Below, in pieces: positions 2 through 5,923 of a DNA stretch of 6,018 nucleotides. Each line of letters starts with the position of its first letter. The first letter of the stretch is position 1. The notes beneath the pieces were generated by a model that was not told where the DNA came from, did not search any database, and was given only the letters and a program-made list of their open reading frames with translations. The stretch covers positions 1 to 6,018 of the forward strand of contig VBHV01000475.1 in NCBI GenBank assembly GCA_005881995.1. The letters are read 5' to 3'. The stretch comes from Chloroflexota bacterium. GTDB taxonomy: Bacteria > Chloroflexota > Ktedonobacteria > Ktedonobacterales > Ktedonobacteraceae. The translations under genes were made by a program, and so were the position numbers.

Positions 2-49
2 ATCACAGCCACATCACAGCAAGGCACAGCAATATCACAAACGGCTCAC
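2..49 (-). promoter_or_regulatory. Leftward array of phased GTGA motifs, probably the promoter region of a gene beyond the left edge
   Basis: Read on the minus strand, GTGA motifs begin at 49, 38, 17 and 6, giving spacings of 11, 21 and 11 bp. A degenerate GTGC lies in the middle at 27. The second site reads GTGATAT. This matches, in order and spacing, the arrays upstream of the genes at 337 and 5194. In those two copies the -10 hexamer starts 15 bp after the start of the last GTGA. Here that point would fall about 9-14 bases outside the window, so the -10 and the gene cannot be seen. On the plus strand the same bases look like a run of ATCACAGC-type repeats. The direct-repeat geometry suggests a tandem-binding OmpR/PhoB-family regulator; which protein binds is inference. 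Confidence 0.6.
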
Positions 50-76
50 AAGACACGAAAAACAGAGGATTACAGC

Positions 77-220
77 TTATGCTTCAGCGAACACCTGTGT
101 CTCCACCTCAACAATGCAGTACATAGGTCTGAGCACAAGCACCTGGTAGCCGGTCACTGTGACGTACTTTTGCTGTTTCTCGCAACTCTGCTCCGCCGGA
201 AGGCAGGTTTCATTCCTCAT
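77..220 (-). CDS. Doubtful short leftward ORF (47 aa), unrecognised
   Basis: An ATG at 220-218 opens a 47-residue frame ending at a stop at 79-77. Its second half (KYVTVTGYQVLVLRPMYCIV) looks protein-like and the codons mostly end in G or C, which is why it is listed. I do not recognise a family, signal peptide or motif beyond two cysteines near the start (CLPAEQSC). There is no Shine-Dalgarno sequence before this ATG or before the in-frame ATG at 277. The frame stays open upstream to an ATG at 376, but that extension would run antisense through the GTGA array, the -10 box and the start of the kinase gene, so it is unlikely to be the true start. It could be a leaderless small protein, a gene remnant, or chance. 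Confidence 0.2.
   Translation of the reverse strand: MRNETCLPAEQSCEKQQKYVTVTGYQVLVLRPMYCIVEVETQVFAEA
153..163. repeat. Perfect 11-bp palindrome GTCAC-T-GTGAC
   Basis: GTCAC at 153-157 and GTGAC at 159-163 are exact reverse complements around a single T. The site contains the GTGA core of the nearby arrays in inverted rather than direct orientation. It lies about 60 bp upstream of the rightward array, inside the doubtful leftward ORF. It may be an extra operator or simply chance. Confidence 0.3.
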
Positions 221-221
221 T

Positions 222-284
222 GTGATGCGTTTGTGATATGCTCCCTCATTCCGTGATGGGAATGTGAGCATTACCATGTATAAT
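222..284 (+). promoter_or_regulatory. Promoter of the first kinase gene: four-site GTGA array plus TATAAT
   Basis: GTGA motifs begin at 222, 233, 253 and 264 (spacings 11, 20, 11 bp), the second reading GTGATAT and the third CCGTGAT. A perfect -10 hexamer TATAAT lies at 279-284, 15 bp after the start of the last GTGA. At the usual -35 distance (256-261) the bases are ATGGGA, so there is no normal -35 and the array occupies that place. This is the layout of activator-dependent PhoB/OmpR-type promoters, in which a direct-repeat box ends about 10 bp before the -10. The transcript should start near 291, giving a leader of about 46 nt with AGGAAG at 328-333 before the ATG at 337. Because the downstream pair encodes an OmpR-family regulator, autoregulation is the natural inference. 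Confidence 0.7.
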
Positions 285-336
285 GAACCACAAGCACAAT
301 GCAAAGAGGTGCTGAGTTTTTCATAGCAGGAAGAAC

Positions 337-1788
337 ATGACACTATTACACCCGGCCCTGGGCGAACCGCTGGCATCAGAAATAACCAACGCGCTCATCG
401 ACCTTGCAGCCTTAACGCGAAGGGCTGCTGGCGCTGACCATGCGCATCCCGACGCCATCTCTCACGAGATGTTACAGTGCGTGCTCGCCCTCTGTAAAGC
501 GCAGCGCGGCGCGGTCTTGCTGGCTGAGGGCCACGACAGCTCACAGACGCACGGGGAATCTGCTCAGCCCACCTCAGATCACGCAAAAGCATCGCGCGCG
601 CTGGCTTTGCACAACATCCACGAAGAAGATGCCCATGCCCTCTTGCGTGTGATTCCCCCGGCACATACGCACATCCACTCTGCCGAGATCACCTGCTGGA
701 TCACCTACGGGCTCTCTTTGAACGAGGTCGCAGGTGATAGCGGGAGTGCGCTTGACGTACCTTTGGGAGCTTCTTCTCACGTCGAAGGGGGGCAGAACGC
801 GCTCCTGGTGCTGGGATGGTCGAACGAATCCGACGAAGCATGCGCTTCCATGATAGCGCGCTGCCAGACGGTGCTCCCCCTGGTGGCCGATGCGGTCGGG
901 GCGGTCGTTGCCTGCATAGTAATGAAAGAGCGCGTGCAGGAACTCGAGTGCGCTTCTGTGTGCGAATCGCTGCAGGGCATGGAACTGCTGAAGGCGGAAC
1001 TGCTGGGGACGGTCAGCCACGAGCTGCGCAGTCCCCTGGCCTCCATCAAGGGCTACGCGGCCACGCTGTTGCGGCACGAACGCCGCCTGGCACGCGAAGA
1101 GCGCCACCAGTTCCTGCTGGCGATTACCGAGGCTAGCGACCGCCTGGAAGTCATCATCGAACGGCTCCTGGAGATCTCGCAATTTGAGACGGGCCAGGTG
1201 AGAATCGACCGCGCGCCCGTCGATATGGCTCATCTCGCGGGTGAGGCGATTGCGGCCATCCAGGAGCGGGTCGAAGCTGCATCCCCGCGGCATTTCGTGT
1301 TCGGCCTCCGTTTGAAGCGCGCCGATAGCACACCAGCCGATGCCGTTCCCCTCATCGTGGCCGATCAGCGCCACCTGCGTGAGATGCTGGACAACTTGCT
1401 CGAGAATGCAGTGAACTATTCACCCGGCGGGGGAGCAATCGACGTCACGATTCGCCCGGTCGTTCAGACCCACCCCATGGCAAAAGGCACAGCCCCCCGG
1501 CAAGATGGTGAGAACCCACCGGACGGGCACGTTCCCCGCAGCATGCTGGAAATCTGCGTTTCCGATACCGGCCAGGGGATTCCGGACGGTCACCTGCAGC
1601 GCATCTTTGAGCGCTTCCACCGGGTCGACACCCGCTTGACCCGCGAGACGAACGGACTCGGGCTCGGATTAACCATCTGCAAGCGCATCGTCGAACTGCA
1701 CGACGGTCTCATCTGGGTTGAAAACAGGCCACACGGCGGAGGCGCTGCTTTCTATGTGCGGCTCCCGATTGATGAACCACCAGGATGA
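337..1788 (+). CDS. Soluble sensor histidine kinase with GAF-like N-terminal domain
   Basis: A 483-residue protein that should autophosphorylate and pass phosphate to the response regulator encoded next. Residues about 15-195 form a GAF-like sensory region (core around LQCVLALCKAQRGAVLL), followed by a short coiled linker (about 195-222). The HisKA helix pair carries the phospho-accepting His228 in SHELRSPL. The ATPase domain has the N box with Asn357 (LLENAVNYSP), the G1 box DTGQGI (410-415), the F box RIFERF (422-427) and the G2 box GLGLGL (440-445), so all catalytic motifs are intact. No membrane segment or signal peptide is visible, so it acts in the cytoplasm. The region before His228 has 8 cysteines and 14 histidines, including HTHIH at 110-114. 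About 20 proline-rich residues are inserted between the N and G1 boxes (around 378-402). The ATG at 337 follows AGGAAG at 328-333. The signal is unknown. Confidence 0.93.
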   Translation: MTLLHPALGEPLASEITNALIDLAALTRRAAGADHAHPDAISHEMLQCVLALCKAQRGAVLLAEGHDSSQTHGESAQPTSDHAKASRALALHNIHEEDAHALLRVIPPAHTHIHSAEITCWITYGLSLNEVAGDSGSALDVPLGASSHVEGGQNALLVLGWSNESDEACASMIARCQTVLPLVADAVGAVVACIVMKERVQELECASVCESLQGMELLKAELLGTVSHELRSPLASIKGYAATLLRHERRLAREERHQFLLAITEASDRLEVIIERLLEISQFETGQVRIDRAPVDMAHLAGEAIAAIQERVEAASPRHFVFGLRLKRADSTPADAVPLIVADQRHLREMLDNLLENAVNYSPGGGAIDVTIRPVVQTHPMAKGTAPRQDGENPPDGHVPRSMLEICVSDTGQGIPDGHLQRIFERFHRVDTRLTRETNGLGLGLTICKRIVELHDGLIWVENRPHGGGAAFYVRLPIDEPPG

Positions 1789-1876
1789 TTTTCCAGAGTG
1801 TGCGTGTGCTCATGGAAGGGCAATGAAGCGCTTCTCTATGAACACGGTATGGTTATTTTGTACATCTAGTATCTTA

Positions 1877-1884
1877 AGAAGGAG
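1877..1884 (+). promoter_or_regulatory. Strong Shine-Dalgarno site that fixes the response regulator start
   Basis: AGAAGGAG at 1877-1884 stands 7 nt before the ATG at 1892. The frame is open further upstream to an ATG at 1718 inside the kinase gene, but that part has no ribosome site, overlaps the kinase out of frame and does not resemble a receiver domain. The ATG at 1892 places ILTADDDP exactly where a receiver domain begins. Confidence 0.85.
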
Positions 1885-1891
1885 AACACCT

Positions 1892-2620
1892 ATGCCCGCA
1901 AAGAAAACAACCATCCTGACCGCAGATGACGATCCACAGCTGTTACGGCTGATCACCCGCAATCTCCAGTTGGAGGGCTATGAGGTTCTGCCAGTGAGTG
2001 ATGGCCAGCAGGCGTTGGAGCAGATCGAGCAAAAGTCGCCCGACGTGGTGCTGCTGGACGTGATGATGCCGCGCATGGACGGCTTTACCGTCTGCCACAA
2101 AGTGCGCGAGTTTTCCTCGGTGCCCATCATCATCGTCACCGCGCGCGGGCAAGATCAGGACAAGGTGCGGGGGCTCGACCTGGGCGCTGACGACTACCTG
2201 ACCAAACCCTTTAGCGTCGATGAGCTGCTGGCGCGGGTGCGCTCCGTCCTGCGCCGGGCGCAGTTCTCGGCCAAAGAAAGCGCCCAGGGACTGCAGTCCA
2301 CCATGGCCACGGGCGAGCTGACGATAGACTTTTCGCAGCACCTGGTGGCCCTGGCGGGCAAAGAGATAGCCCTCACCCCCACCGAATTTAGCATCATCGC
2401 TTACCTGGCGCAGAACGCCGGGCGCGTCGTGACCCAGGATCTGCTGCTCGAGCATGTCTGGGGGTCCGAATACCTGGGCGAGGGGCACATGCTGCAGGTC
2501 AACATCAACCGCCTGCGGCGCAAGATCGAAACGGATCCCACCCATCCGCGCTACATCCTCACCAAAGTCGGGATAGGCTATTCGCTGGCCGCGTTACCCC
2601 CATTTGAAATGGCGCCCTAA
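1892..2620 (+). CDS. OmpR/PhoB-family response regulator (receiver plus winged helix)
   Basis: A 242-residue DNA-binding response regulator. The receiver domain (about 6-120) has the acidic pair Asp12-Asp13, the phospho-acceptor Asp56 (VVLLDVMMPRMDG), Thr83 and Lys105 (LTKPF), so it should be switched by phosphorylation. A linker of about 20 residues leads to a winged-helix effector domain (about 139-233) with LTPTEF (161-166), the recognition helix LQVNINRLRRKIE (201-213) and the wing VGIGYSL (226-232). Most relatives have RGxGY at the wing; here valine replaces the arginine. The gene starts 103 nt after the stop of the first kinase. I see no convincing promoter in that gap, so the two are probably cotranscribed. 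The second kinase follows 177 nt later and could also address this regulator. It is the best candidate to bind the GTGA direct repeats in this window, which is inference. Confidence 0.95.
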   Translation: MPAKKTTILTADDDPQLLRLITRNLQLEGYEVLPVSDGQQALEQIEQKSPDVVLLDVMMPRMDGFTVCHKVREFSSVPIIIVTARGQDQDKVRGLDLGADDYLTKPFSVDELLARVRSVLRRAQFSAKESAQGLQSTMATGELTIDFSQHLVALAGKEIALTPTEFSIIAYLAQNAGRVVTQDLLLEHVWGSEYLGEGHMLQVNINRLRRKIETDPTHPRYILTKVGIGYSLAALPPFEMAP

Positions 2621-2666
2621 GATAGATAGATACTCTCATCCTCTTCACAGGGTGGCGGTTATCTCT

Positions 2667-2689
2667 TCCCTGACTTCGCGGTACAGGGA
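2667..2689 (+). other. Small hairpin after the response regulator gene
   Basis: TCCCTG at 2667-2672 and CAGGGA at 2684-2689 are reverse complements, with a possible inner AC/GT pairing. The stem sits 47 nt after the regulator stop and is not followed by a T-run, so it is not a clear intrinsic terminator. It may slow read-through or protect the 3' end. A (GATA)3 run lies at 2621-2632, just after the stop codon. Confidence 0.3.
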
Positions 2690-2724
2690 GCTGGCGCTCG
2701 GCAGGTGCAAGGTCAATCGAGACA

Positions 2725-2754
2725 TGCACAGCTTCTGGTTGAGAATGCTATAAT
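2725..2754 (+). promoter_or_regulatory. Extended -10 promoter of the triple-PAS kinase gene
   Basis: A perfect TATAAT lies at 2749-2754, preceded by TG at 2746-2747 in the extended -10 position (TGCTATAAT). A weak -35, TGCACA at 2725-2730, matches 4 of 6 consensus bases with an 18-nt spacer. Transcription should start near 2761, about 37 nt before the ATG at 2798. No phased GTGA motifs are present, so this promoter looks constitutive or controlled differently from those upstream of 337 and 5194. Confidence 0.65.
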
Positions 2755-2783
2755 GAGATGAGATTCTTTGATGATATAGCAAC

Positions 2784-2790
2784 AAGGGAG
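2784..2790 (+). promoter_or_regulatory. Shine-Dalgarno site that decides the second kinase start
   Basis: AAGGGAG at 2784-2790 lies 7 nt before ATG 2798 but only 4 nt before the adjacent in-frame GTG at 2795. The spacing favours the ATG. The two choices differ by a single residue. Confidence 0.7.
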
Positions 2791-2797
2791 TACAGTG

Positions 2798-4792
2798 ATG
2801 TCCGATGGTCAGGTCCCCCAGAGCGTGGCTGATTCTTCAGCCGCTCCCCCCTCTATCTCATCCGCCAACATCCATCCATTTCTGGACATCTCTCCCGACG
2901 CGCTGGTGATCGTGGACCGAAACGGGAACATTGTGCTGGTGAACGGGCAGACCGAGGCCGTCTTCGGCTATGCGCGCTCCGAATTGCTTGGGCAACCGCT
3001 CGAACTGCTCCTCCCCCAGCGCTTTCACGCCGCCCATGCCTCGCATCGGGAGCGCTATTTCTCAGCCCCGCGCACCCGCCCCATGGGCATCGGGCTGAAC
3101 CTCGTCGGGCGGCGCAAGGATGGTACGGAATTCCCGGTGGAGATCAGCCTGAACCCCCTGCTGCTCGATGGCACGCTCCACGCGCTGGGGGCCGTGCGCG
3201 ATGTGAGCGCCCAGCGCGCCGTCGAGCGCGAGCGCCTCCAGCAAGCACAGCAGATCCGCCTGCAGGCGGATCTGCTCAATCTCGCCCACGACGCCATCTT
3301 CGTCCGCGACCCCGCGAGCCGCGTGTCCTTCTGGAATTCGGGGGCCGAGGAACTCTACGGCTGGGCCGAGCAGGAGGCACTGGGCCGCGTCAGCCATGTG
3401 CTGCTCAAAACGCGCTTCCCCGTCGACCTCGCCACCATTGAGGCCCAGGTCGCCCACGATGGCCAGTGGGAAGGAGAGCTCGTGCAGACCCGCCGGGATG
3501 GTAGCACCGTGATCGTCGAAAGTCGCTGGGCCGGAGTACGCGACGAGCAAGGACATCCAACGACCATCATGGAGATCAACCGCGATATCACCCGCCGCCG
3601 CGAGCTGGAGCAGGCCGAGCACGCCGTGTATGCCGAGACCGCGGCGCGTCTGACCTTCATGCAGCAGGTGCTCGACGCGCTACCCAGCGGGATCTATCTC
3701 GTATATGGGCGAGAGGCGCGCCTGCTGCTGGCCAACCGCGCTACCGCTAGCGTGTGGGGAGCGCAGTGGTCGACCGATCAACCGATGCTCGAGTTCCTGG
3801 CGACCAACGGGATCGCGCTCTTCGATGCGCAGGGATACCCTATGCAGCCGGAACAGTACGCGACGCTGCGCGCCGTCGGGCGGGGGGAGACGGTACTCCA
3901 GCAGCAGGAGGCGATCCGCCGCCCTGGTGGCTCCAGCCTGCCCGTCCTGGTCAGCGCTCTGCCGCTGCTCCAGCAGCCGGGAACCGATCAACTGGGCCCA
4001 CTGGGAGAGGCAGTGGCGCTGGTGGTCCATCAAGACGTCACCGCCCTCAAAGAGGCGGAGTACCTCAAAGACGAGTTCGTGGGCATCGTGGCGCATGAAT
4101 TGCGCACGCCCCTCGCGGCTCTGCGCGGCTTTGCCGACATGCTGCTGGTGCAAACGGCGCGCCGACGCGGCCCCAAGCTGGCTGATTGGCAGCAGGAAGC
4201 GCTGGAGGAGATCGAACTGGCCGTCAAACGGCTGGTTGATCTCACGGAGGAATTGCTGGATGTGACCCGCCTGCAGGCCGGGCGCCTGCTGCTGCAGCGC
4301 GCTCCGACCAACGTGGTAACGCTCGCTAGGCGCATCGCGACGTTCCTGCAGCAAACGACCACGCGGCATCAGATAGAGGTGCACACCGAGCATGCCTCGC
4401 TTGTAGCCGACGTCGACCCGGGCCGCGTCGAGCAGGTACTCACTAACCTCATCGGCAATGCCATCAAGTACAGCCCGCAGGGAGGCCTGGTGACTGTCAC
4501 CCTCTGGGAAGAAGCGGCTACCGGAGTGGTGAAGATCAGCGTGCAGGATCACGGCATCGGCATTCCAGGTTCCCAACAGGCTCAGATCTTCGGGCGCTTC
4601 ACACGCGCCGACAACGCCCAGGCGTGGGGGATCAGCGGTACGGGGCTGGGACTGTACATCTGCCGCGAACTGGTGGAACGGCACGGAGGGCAGCTCTGGT
4701 TTGAGTCGCGGGAAAATGTCGGTTCTACCTTTTTCTTGACGCTGCCAATCGGTGCCCACCAGAAGAGCAGCGAGCCACCTTCATCTCCTTGA
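2798..4792 (+). CDS. Soluble histidine kinase with three PAS domains
   Basis: A 664-residue cytoplasmic sensor kinase with no membrane segment or signal peptide. Three PAS modules come first: PAS1 about 25-138 (FLDISPDALVIVD; typical PAC end VGRRKDGTEFPVEISL), PAS2 about 155-266 (LLNLAHDAIFVRD; ends in NRDITRR) and a more divergent PAS3 about 287-418 (VLDALPSGIYLV). Charged helical linkers join them (about 138-155 and 266-287). The HisKA domain (about 422-490) has the phospho-acceptor His433 in AHELRTPL. The ATPase domain has Asn554 in the N box (NLIGNAIKYSP), the G1 box DHGIGI (584-589) and the G2 box GTGLGL (614-619), all intact. The C-terminus is a short polar tail. It has no receiver domain of its own, so its partner is probably the regulator just upstream or one encoded elsewhere. 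PAS domains can hold haem, flavin or small ligands; none of these can be assigned from this sequence. Confidence 0.94.
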   Translation: MSDGQVPQSVADSSAAPPSISSANIHPFLDISPDALVIVDRNGNIVLVNGQTEAVFGYARSELLGQPLELLLPQRFHAAHASHRERYFSAPRTRPMGIGLNLVGRRKDGTEFPVEISLNPLLLDGTLHALGAVRDVSAQRAVERERLQQAQQIRLQADLLNLAHDAIFVRDPASRVSFWNSGAEELYGWAEQEALGRVSHVLLKTRFPVDLATIEAQVAHDGQWEGELVQTRRDGSTVIVESRWAGVRDEQGHPTTIMEINRDITRRRELEQAEHAVYAETAARLTFMQQVLDALPSGIYLVYGREARLLLANRATASVWGAQWSTDQPMLEFLATNGIALFDAQGYPMQPEQYATLRAVGRGETVLQQQEAIRRPGGSSLPVLVSALPLLQQPGTDQLGPLGEAVALVVHQDVTALKEAEYLKDEFVGIVAHELRTPLAALRGFADMLLVQTARRRGPKLADWQQEALEEIELAVKRLVDLTEELLDVTRLQAGRLLLQRAPTNVVTLARRIATFLQQTTTRHQIEVHTEHASLVADVDPGRVEQVLTNLIGNAIKYSPQGGLVTVTLWEEAATGVVKISVQDHGIGIPGSQQAQIFGRFTRADNAQAWGISGTGLGLYICRELVERHGGQLWFESRENVGSTFFLTLPIGAHQKSSEPPSSP

Positions 4793-4809
4793 GCCTGACC
4801 ACCCCTGGA

Positions 4810-4949
4810 ATGCCTGTAATGATGCCATACCGATTGTTGTGTACGTATCCTTCTTTTGAAGATGAACAGGCATAGATACAGTTTATGGGATACGTACCCA
4901 TGGATGACCTCTGTTGTCAAAAGTAACAATAGCAAGATGGGAACAGAGG
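4810..4949. repeat. Cluster of inverted repeats in the gap after the second kinase
   Basis: The 401-nt gap 4793-5193 has no convincing gene. Its first part carries three perfect inverted repeats. ATGCCTGT at 4810-4817 pairs with 4866-4873. GTACGTATCC at 4841-4850 pairs with 4888-4897. CCTCTGTT at 4908-4915 pairs with 4942-4949. The first two are interleaved, so as RNA they could form a pseudoknot but not two simple nested hairpins. A small CTTC-TTTT-GAAG hairpin lies at 4850-4861. None is followed by a T-run, so no standard intrinsic terminator for the kinase gene is seen. No flanking target-site duplication was found, so a small transposon remnant is not supported. Confidence 0.45.
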
Positions 4950-5029
4950 AAAAATAGCGAATCGGAGGGAAGAAGGGATGCCACAGACTCCACACATTGA
5001 GCACCATTTTACCGCAGGAGAGACTGTTT

Positions 5030-5093
5030 GTGACATCTTAGTGATATATTTAGGTGTTGCCGTGATTTTTCCGTGAGATGAAAGGGGTATGCT
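5030..5093 (+). promoter_or_regulatory. Promoter of the DoxX-family gene: four-site GTGA array plus TATGCT
   Basis: GTGA motifs begin at 5030, 5041, 5062 and 5073 (spacings 11, 21, 11 bp). The second reads GTGATAT, the third CCGTGAT and the fourth GTGAG, as in the array upstream of the first kinase. The -10 hexamer TATGCT at 5088-5093 starts 15 bp after the start of the last GTGA, the same distance as in that promoter. The usual -35 position (5065-5070) reads ATTTTT, so activation by a bound regulator is likely. The transcript should start near 5100, giving a leader of about 94 nt. Confidence 0.68.
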
Positions 5094-5147
5094 AAGAGTG
5101 TCAAAGGACAAGCTCTGAGCGAGGCGCAGCTTCGCAGGGCACTCAAC

Positions 5148-5193: not shown

Positions 5194-5853
5194 ATGAGTA
5201 TTATGAAAAACGTGCAGCCCAAGGCTGCTTCGCAAGTTCCCGAACCGCCCATCGCGCGGTTCCTATTCGCCGACACACGTATGGCGTGGTTCTGGTTGAT
5301 CGTGCGCGTCTATGTAGGTTGGCAGTGGCTGGTAGCGGGCATTGACAAGCTGACCGGCTACTCGATAGACGTGGGAACGTTTGGACAGCATGTGGGCAAT
5401 TCCTGGATTGTCACGAGCCATCCGGGAGCCGCGCTGAGCGGGTTCCTCAATGGCGCGCTCGCTCAGACCACCGGCGCACATCCGGCGGTGCAGGGCTGGT
5501 ACGGCTGGTTCGTGCAGAACCTGGCACTGCCAAGTGCTCCTTTCCTCTCGTATGTCGTCACCTTTGGGGAAATCCTGGTCGGGCTGGGCCTGATCTTTGG
5601 GGTTTTGACCGGCATCGCCGCCTTCTTCGGATTGTTCATGAACATGAACTTCCTGCTGGCAGGCGCCGTCAGCATCAACCCCATTATCGGGGGACTGGCC
5701 CTGTTCATTCTGCTGGCCTGGCGCGTCGCGGGCTACTACGGTGGCGACCGCTACCTGCTGCCGCTGCTGGGTACTCCCTGGACGGGCAGGCTCACCGCGC
5801 AGCCCAAGCCAGAAGTCACACCAACGCCTCCTCCGGTACCCGTTATGAGCTGA
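5194..5853 (+). CDS. DoxX/DoxD-family integral membrane protein
   Basis: A 219-residue membrane protein. Four hydrophobic helices are visible at about 31-50 (WFWLIVRVYVGWQWLVAGI), 117-138, 140-158 and 161-180. A long hydrophilic stretch (about 51-115) separates helices 1 and 2, and the tail is proline-rich (about 204-217). The first helix with R-x-x-x-G-W-x-W-x-x-x-G-I-D-K and the later GEILVGLGLIFGVLTG pattern fit the DoxX/DoxD family. One member is the small subunit of archaeal thiosulfate:quinone oxidoreductase; others are linked to redox or oxidative-stress functions, and most are uncharacterised. No partner subunit is encoded here, so thiosulfate oxidation should not be assumed. The start follows GAGGT at 5182-5186 with a 7-nt gap. 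It seems to be a single-gene unit, with its own GTGA-array promoter and a terminator 28 nt after the stop. Confidence 0.85.
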   Translation: MSIMKNVQPKAASQVPEPPIARFLFADTRMAWFWLIVRVYVGWQWLVAGIDKLTGYSIDVGTFGQHVGNSWIVTSHPGAALSGFLNGALAQTTGAHPAVQGWYGWFVQNLALPSAPFLSYVVTFGEILVGLGLIFGVLTGIAAFFGLFMNMNFLLAGAVSINPIIGGLALFILLAWRVAGYYGGDRYLLPLLGTPWTGRLTAQPKPEVTPTPPPVPVMS

Positions 5854-5880: not shown

Positions 5881-5923
5881 CGGGGCGAGAGGAGCAATAC
5901 TCCTCTCGCCCCGCTCATTTTCT
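5881..5923 (+). terminator. Strong rho-independent terminator of the DoxX-family gene
   Basis: A perfect 14-bp GC-rich stem, CGGGGCGAGAGGAG at 5881-5894 pairing with 5900-5913, closes a CAATA loop and is followed by CTCATTTTCT (5914-5923). It begins 28 nt after the stop codon at 5853. On the minus strand the stem is not followed by a T-run, so it should work mainly rightward. Confidence 0.88.

Follow-up and report, generated by a model that had tools for sequence, protein, structure and literature searches.

Organization of the locus

The analyzed window is a stretch of 6,018 nucleotides from contig VBHV01000475.1 (assembly GCA_005881995.1) of a Chloroflexota bacterium belonging to the family Ktedonobacteraceae. 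It contains four genes, all directed rightward, which code for a histidine kinase (HK1), a response regulator, a second histidine kinase (HK2), and a DoxX-family membrane protein. Three arrays of GTGA half-sites, which are the subject of this work, accompany these genes. The features are as follows.

3..49, minus strand: array 1, four GTGA half-sites spaced 11, 21, and 11 bp with a GTGC midway, pointing left
222..267, plus strand: array 2, four GTGA half-sites spaced 11, 20, and 11 bp, upstream of the kinase-regulator genes
279..284, plus strand: -10 hexamer TATAAT of array 2, starting 15 bp past the start of the last GTGA
337..1788, plus strand: histidine kinase HK1, with a predicted N-terminal GAF-like domain, HisKA, and HATPase_c
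1892..2620, plus strand: OmpR/PhoB-family response regulator (Response_reg and Trans_reg_C), the proposed reader of the arrays
2798..4792, plus strand: second histidine kinase HK2, with at least two PAS domains, HisKA, and HATPase_c
5030..5076, plus strand: array 3, four GTGA half-sites spaced 11, 21, and 11 bp, upstream of the DoxX gene
5088..5093, plus strand: -10 hexamer TATGCT of array 3, starting 15 bp past the start of the last GTGA
5194..5853, plus strand: DoxX-family membrane protein, a recurrent target of the arrays

A preliminary description of this DNA had proposed that the three arrays share one order of half-sites with start-to-start spacings of 11, 20 or 21, and 11 bp, in an agreement that is hard to put down to chance. 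We expressed this arrangement as a strict gapped pattern, GTGA-N7-GTGAT-N(15,16)-GTGAT-N6-GTGA. The window contained exactly three matches, at 3-49 on the minus strand and at 222-267 and 5030-5076 on the plus strand, and none was found in 200 dinucleotide shuffles of the window, which bore out both parts of the proposal. The two -10 hexamers were also found in the sequence at 279 and 5088 with the distance of 15 bp that had been described. Array 1 points off the left edge of the window, and its -10 hexamer would fall outside.

Distribution of the array in Chloroflexota

The pattern was searched for in 47 genomes of the class Ktedonobacteria, a sample reached via two Ktedonobacterales loci (L001 and L002). 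These loci came from a scan of genome contigs with the kinase alignment, which otherwise gave mostly remote kinases. The strict pattern was matched 27 times in 17 of the 47 genomes. The search of 400 Chloroflexota genomes, the 47 class members included, returned the same 27 matches and none in the other 353 genomes. The reversed pattern gave no match in either the 47 or the 400 genomes. A version of the pattern with 10-bp repeats was likewise absent from the class sample, and its reversed control was matched twice, both times in one genome (G026). Viral contigs contained three strict matches, two of them within simple repeats (L112 and L114) and the third in L113; all three were set aside. The specificity of the pattern, with no match in 353 other Chloroflexota genomes, would allow promoters to be annotated in uncultured genomes.

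A sequence-only profile was then trained on 29 arrays (27 from the class and 2 from the window). As the profile includes the -10 hexamer, counting this hexamer in non-strict matches would be circular, and only strict arrays were used as evidence for it. In the window, the profile recovered the same three arrays only; arrays 2 and 3 are members of the training set, and array 1 is not. At E ≤ 0.5, matches were found in 44 of the 47 genomes, up to 29 in a single genome, many of them possibly by chance. The profile-based counts given below therefore refer to the best 150 matches (about E ≤ 0.005), which are spread over 35 of the 47 genomes. Just 7 of these lie inside long open reading frames, where random positions drawn from these loci fall in 67% of cases. 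The motif is therefore not equally common inside genes; an equal frequency there would have spoken against a shared regulator. A gene start follows within 450 bp in 134 of the 150 cases. The matches include nine back-to-back divergent pairs, which is also how arrays 1 and 2 are placed in the window, and no convergent pair. A fifth half-site midway between the pairs was not clearly above chance (four letters in 3 and three letters in 11 of the 150 matches). The comparative data favor the shared regulator and regulon suggested by the preliminary description, but with the best 150 sites found in 35 genomes, its word "small" does not hold.

Two arrangements were observed in passing. On contig C12 of genome G003, at about 78-109 kb (L123, L243, and L202), six arrays and the regulator lie within ~31 kb, resembling a regulon island, with a universal stress gene at ~104.7 kb. 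In genome G001, a strict array (L129, 7193-7239) has no rightward gene called, and the adjoining leftward gene codes for a restriction endonuclease of the BsuBI/PstI type.

Promoter geometry

The geometry was determined on 30 distinct strict arrays (27 from the class and 3 from the window), 29 of which have downstream sequence. The half-sites are in direct, not inverted, orientation. In 26 of the 30 arrays, the first GTGA has a T directly before it. Between the two pairs lie 16 bp in 24 arrays and 15 bp in the other 6, which places the pairs 20-21 bp apart, that is, two helical turns. A TAnnnT hexamer lies exactly 11 bp past the last GTGA (15 bp from its start) in 23 of the 29 arrays, and the runner-up offset was seen 3 times. 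Most arrays thus present a direct-repeat box at one exact offset from the -10 hexamer, in the place of a -35 element, as expected for a regulator of the OmpR/PhoB type.

The orientation of the half-sites bears on one alternative, namely that these groups of GTGA represent sites of the CRP/FNR type or a product of chance. TGTGA is also the CRP half-site, and this resemblance is what such a reading can draw on. The repeats are, however, direct, and the inverted arrangement TGTGA...TCACA is not seen; chance is opposed by the empty counts for the reversed pattern (400 genomes), the 10-bp version (47 genomes), and the window shuffles. We consider this explanation very improbable.

One of the closest known systems is PhoB. 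According to the excerpted text of the respective papers, the pho box consists of two 11-bp direct repeats (PMC3978041), and PhoB promoters have no -35 element, PhoB contacting sigma domain 4 instead (PMC4496699). The arrays resemble PhoB promoters in their 11-bp direct repeats, in the winged-helix type of the response regulator proposed to read them (PMC3978041), and in a -10 hexamer without -35, the box replacing the latter (PMC4496699, PMC4971064). They differ from PhoB promoters in the half-site, (T)GTGA(T) rather than the pho box sequence, in the recurrent grouping of four half-sites into two pairs at a distance of 20-21 bp, and in the targets, which are stress and redox genes.

The same geometry could be thought to serve repression. 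A regulator acting mainly as a repressor, or in both ways, could block the polymerase from a box that overlaps the -35 zone, with RNA polymerase using the -10 hexamer unaided. The exact distance from the last repeat to the -10 hexamer in 23 of 29 arrays is, however, what would be expected of an activator in contact with sigma. The last GTGA pair also sits at the -35 position, no -35 element was noted in the window arrays, and PhoB promoters are alike in this respect, judging from the excerpt of PMC4496699. A mainly repressing or dual regulator is thus an unlikely explanation.

The response regulator as a candidate reader of the arrays

The regulator at 1892..2620 contains a receiver domain (PF00072, E 5.6e-34) and a DNA-binding domain of the Trans_reg_C, not GerE, family (PF00486, E 9.1e-26). 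The closest solved structures by sequence are RegX3 (2oqr, E 4e-58) and MtrA (2gwr, E 3e-51). At E ≤ 1e-80, an orthologue was found at 52 places in 37 of the 47 class genomes. The helix that recognizes DNA hardly varies between the window regulator and 30 orthologues.

The arrays are linked to the regulator. All 17 genomes with strict arrays hold an orthologue, and the 10 genomes without an orthologue have no strict array (Fisher p = 0.006). A regulator orthologue is found no more than 2 kb away from 25 of the 150 profile matches, where 0.13 would be expected, and no more than 5 kb away from 32, where 0.29 would be expected. The excess persisted for the 115 matches below 29.5 bits, none of which belongs to the training set: 19 of them have a regulator at a distance of up to 2 kb, compared with 0.10 expected. 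Viewed from the regulator, 23 of the 52 places have a profile match within 5 kb. We also searched 30 regulator loci with ~1.5 kb of flank, one per genome for 30 of the 37 genomes. A match at E ≤ 0.1 was obtained in 19 of the 30, and 18 of the 30 scored above the best control match. The control set consisted of 57 of the 77 loci L004-L080 (727 kb), which carry kinases of many groups, possibly some from the class; it gave two weak matches, of 12.4 and 11.8 bits (E 0.07 and 0.1). Of the gene clusters within ~3.5 kb of arrays, none reaches as many genomes as that of the regulator (19 genomes, 22 genes), while the stress-protein cluster has more genes in fewer genomes (28 in 12).

These counts have to be weighed against the possibility that another transcription factor, an OmpR-family paralogue or an unrelated protein, reads the arrays, and that the kinase-regulator genes are merely among its targets. 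Ktedonobacteria are rich in response regulators, with 41-196 candidate places per genome at first look; 29 of the 52 regulator places have no array within 5 kb among the best 150 matches; and several small gene clusters near arrays are without a Pfam match or unscanned. On the other side, it is the regulator cluster that covers the largest number of genomes beside arrays, and the only other DNA-binding family among the Pfam-scanned cluster representatives, of the NarL/LuxR type, was found in 3 genomes. Strict arrays are restricted to genomes with the orthologue of the window regulator, and 11-bp direct repeats are a typical target of winged-helix OmpR/PhoB proteins. A different reader is accordingly improbable in our estimation.

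Genes downstream of the arrays

An array precedes a homologue of the DoxX gene in 10 of the 150 cases, in 9 genomes; 8 of the homologues are at 63-69% and 2 at 49-50% identity. One further array (genome G021, C27:15844) is also followed by a DoxX gene, which was missed because gene calling was crude and a longer antisense reading frame was preferred. In a separate search we used the best DoxX place in each of 30 genomes, selected from 45 places in 36 genomes. An upstream, correctly oriented array was found at 17 of the 30 loci at E ≤ 0.1 (training arrays are present in 4 of the 17). At E ≤ 0.01 the number was 15 of 30, all above the best control match, and the other half was without such a match. 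The idea was thus not refuted by relatives keeping the genes without the arrays: many genomes keep both, as these 15 DoxX loci do. Together with the clustering around the regulator and the arrays that have a kinase as first gene (below), the DoxX-first arrays support the earlier suggestion that one regulator is shared by the kinase-regulator pair and the DoxX gene.

The other families were assigned from scanned representatives; several clusters and many single genes were without a Pfam match or unscanned. A universal stress protein is the first downstream gene in 18 of the 134 arrays followed by a gene, in 11 genomes. The 47 genomes contain 277 universal stress genes at E ≤ 1e-15 and at most 1113 with loose candidates, which corresponds to a background of about 0.1-0.4% of the gene number, itself estimated from genome size; against this background, 18 of 134 represents a strong enrichment. 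An iron-sulfur/flavin GltD-like oxidoreductase comes first in 9 arrays of 9 genomes, the frame in G026 being without the iron-sulfur part. MurB-like proteins, phosphoketolase, and P-type ATPase follow 6 arrays each, as does multicopper oxidase (5 distinct genes), and pyruvate:ferredoxin oxidoreductase follows 5, 2-hydroxyacid dehydrogenase 3, and OsmC 2. First genes found once include cytochrome bd subunit I, GAPDH, and a CBS protein. A family of ~220-amino-acid proteins also occurs near arrays (the cluster of L120, 5482-7024, has 14 genes in 7 genomes); two scanned members gave no Pfam match, and the family represents possible regulon members.

The histidine kinases

A kinase is the first gene of 15 of the 150 arrays, in 15 genomes, and in 12 of the 15 cases the regulator lies within 4 kb. 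Fourteen of these kinases are good matches to HK1 and closer to it than to HK2, with 35-61% identity over the aligned part; the remaining one is a doubtful frame of 142 amino acids. Among array-linked relatives of HK2, the largest cluster covers 13 genomes. A PAS domain was detected in 2 of 8 scanned array-linked kinases. Among the 120 relatives of HK1 listed, the 6 with a named organism are all from Ktedonobacteraceae, and a plasmid search with the kinase returned remote kinases only, all below 60% identity.

The N-terminal domain of HK1 gave no Pfam match and no match to a PDB sequence. Its GAF-like character is suggested by the predicted topology and by Foldseek matches, all of them weak (the best has E 1.1e-3, and no match reaches 0.001). 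A heme sensor like that of DosS was considered and is not supported, as an alignment of 18 kinases showed no invariant His in this domain.

Other repeats in the window

An imperfect inverted repeat, TGTGTACGTATCC / GGATACGTACCCA, lies at 4838-4850 and 4888-4900, between HK2 and array 3. Its arms are 92% complementary and 37 nt apart, and a similar sequence, ACGTACGTATC, occurs at 5146. The repeat at 4838-4900 is possibly another operator. On the 3' side of the DoxX gene, a GC-rich inverted repeat at 5881-5921 (cggggcgagagga...tcctctcgccccg) is followed by a short T-rich stretch and looks like a putative intrinsic terminator.

Proposed mechanism and comparison with known regulons

Taken together, our interpretation is that the arrays are activator-dependent promoters read by the regulator at 1892-2620, which would control its own genes and a stress, fermentation, and redox regulon across Ktedonobacteria. 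We assign this reading a probability of roughly 0.85. The arrays, their fixed spacing, the position of the -10 hexamer, the linkage to the regulator, and the gene content were observed directly, while binding, phosphorylation, and activation rather than repression are predicted here from sequence. HK1, and perhaps also HK2, would phosphorylate the OmpR/PhoB-family regulator, which would then bind as head-to-tail dimers, one per 11-bp direct-repeat box (TGTGA-N6-TGTGAT). The two boxes are two helical turns apart, so that the dimers would share one face of the helix. By filling the -35 position, the downstream box would recruit RNA polymerase to a -10 hexamer that has no -35 element, in the manner of PhoB. 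The system would thereby activate its own kinase-regulator genes, the DoxX gene, and class-wide stress, fermentation, and redox genes. Judging from the targets, the signal is probably low oxygen or a redox, electron-acceptor, or energy limitation.

Several observations weigh against this interpretation. The 29 regulator places without a nearby array were mentioned above. Conversely, 5 arrays (18.4-22.1 bits) occur in G006, G013, and G046, where no regulator passed the cut-off; the genomes may be incomplete, or the matches may be due to chance. Conservation is much lower for HK1 than for the regulator, with matches at E ≤ 1e-100 in 2 of the 47 genomes. As the sensor domain is GAF-like or PAS among the relatives, a single common signal is not assured, and some members, such as multicopper oxidase, are not obviously anaerobic.

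In the available excerpt of PMC4285127, the MtrA box is described as GTCACAgcg in direct repeat, and the reverse complement of this repeat resembles the array half-site. RegX3 and MtrA, the best structural matches by sequence, are actinobacterial OmpR-family regulators from another phylum and with other targets. In gene content, the array regulon overlaps with the DosRS dormancy/hypoxia regulon of mycobacteria, which, according to the excerpted text of PMC11876180, comprises several universal stress proteins and includes a sensor kinase gene; universal stress proteins and a kinase gene are present in both regulons. The regulator found here is of the OmpR/PhoB family and associated with direct repeats, whereas DosR belongs to the NarL/LuxR family and has a palindromic site. 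Further parallels with DosRS are a P-type cation ATPase, a CBS protein, and a GAF-domain kinase.

It is about an even chance, in our judgment, that a counterpart to the mycobacterial DosR dormancy regulon exists class-wide in Ktedonobacteria, with an OmpR/PhoB-family switch that reads rigid promoters of four half-sites. Soluble GAF- or PAS-sensor kinases would feed this switch. On failure of respiration, it would induce universal stress proteins together with enzymes of fermentation and proteins for alternative electron transfer.

The promoter type and mechanism are of a known kind. What appears to be new is the assignment of regulator, site, and regulon to one another, the class-wide two-box layout, and DosR-like content under another regulator family. 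Literature searches on Ktedonobacteria and on regulon reconstruction in Chloroflexi, at the level of titles and abstract openings, for a part of the matching papers and with few subscription journals, showed no report on such a regulon. As regulator, site, promoter geometry, and targets emerge jointly and with controls, the stress/anaerobic program of a large bacterial group becomes directly testable.

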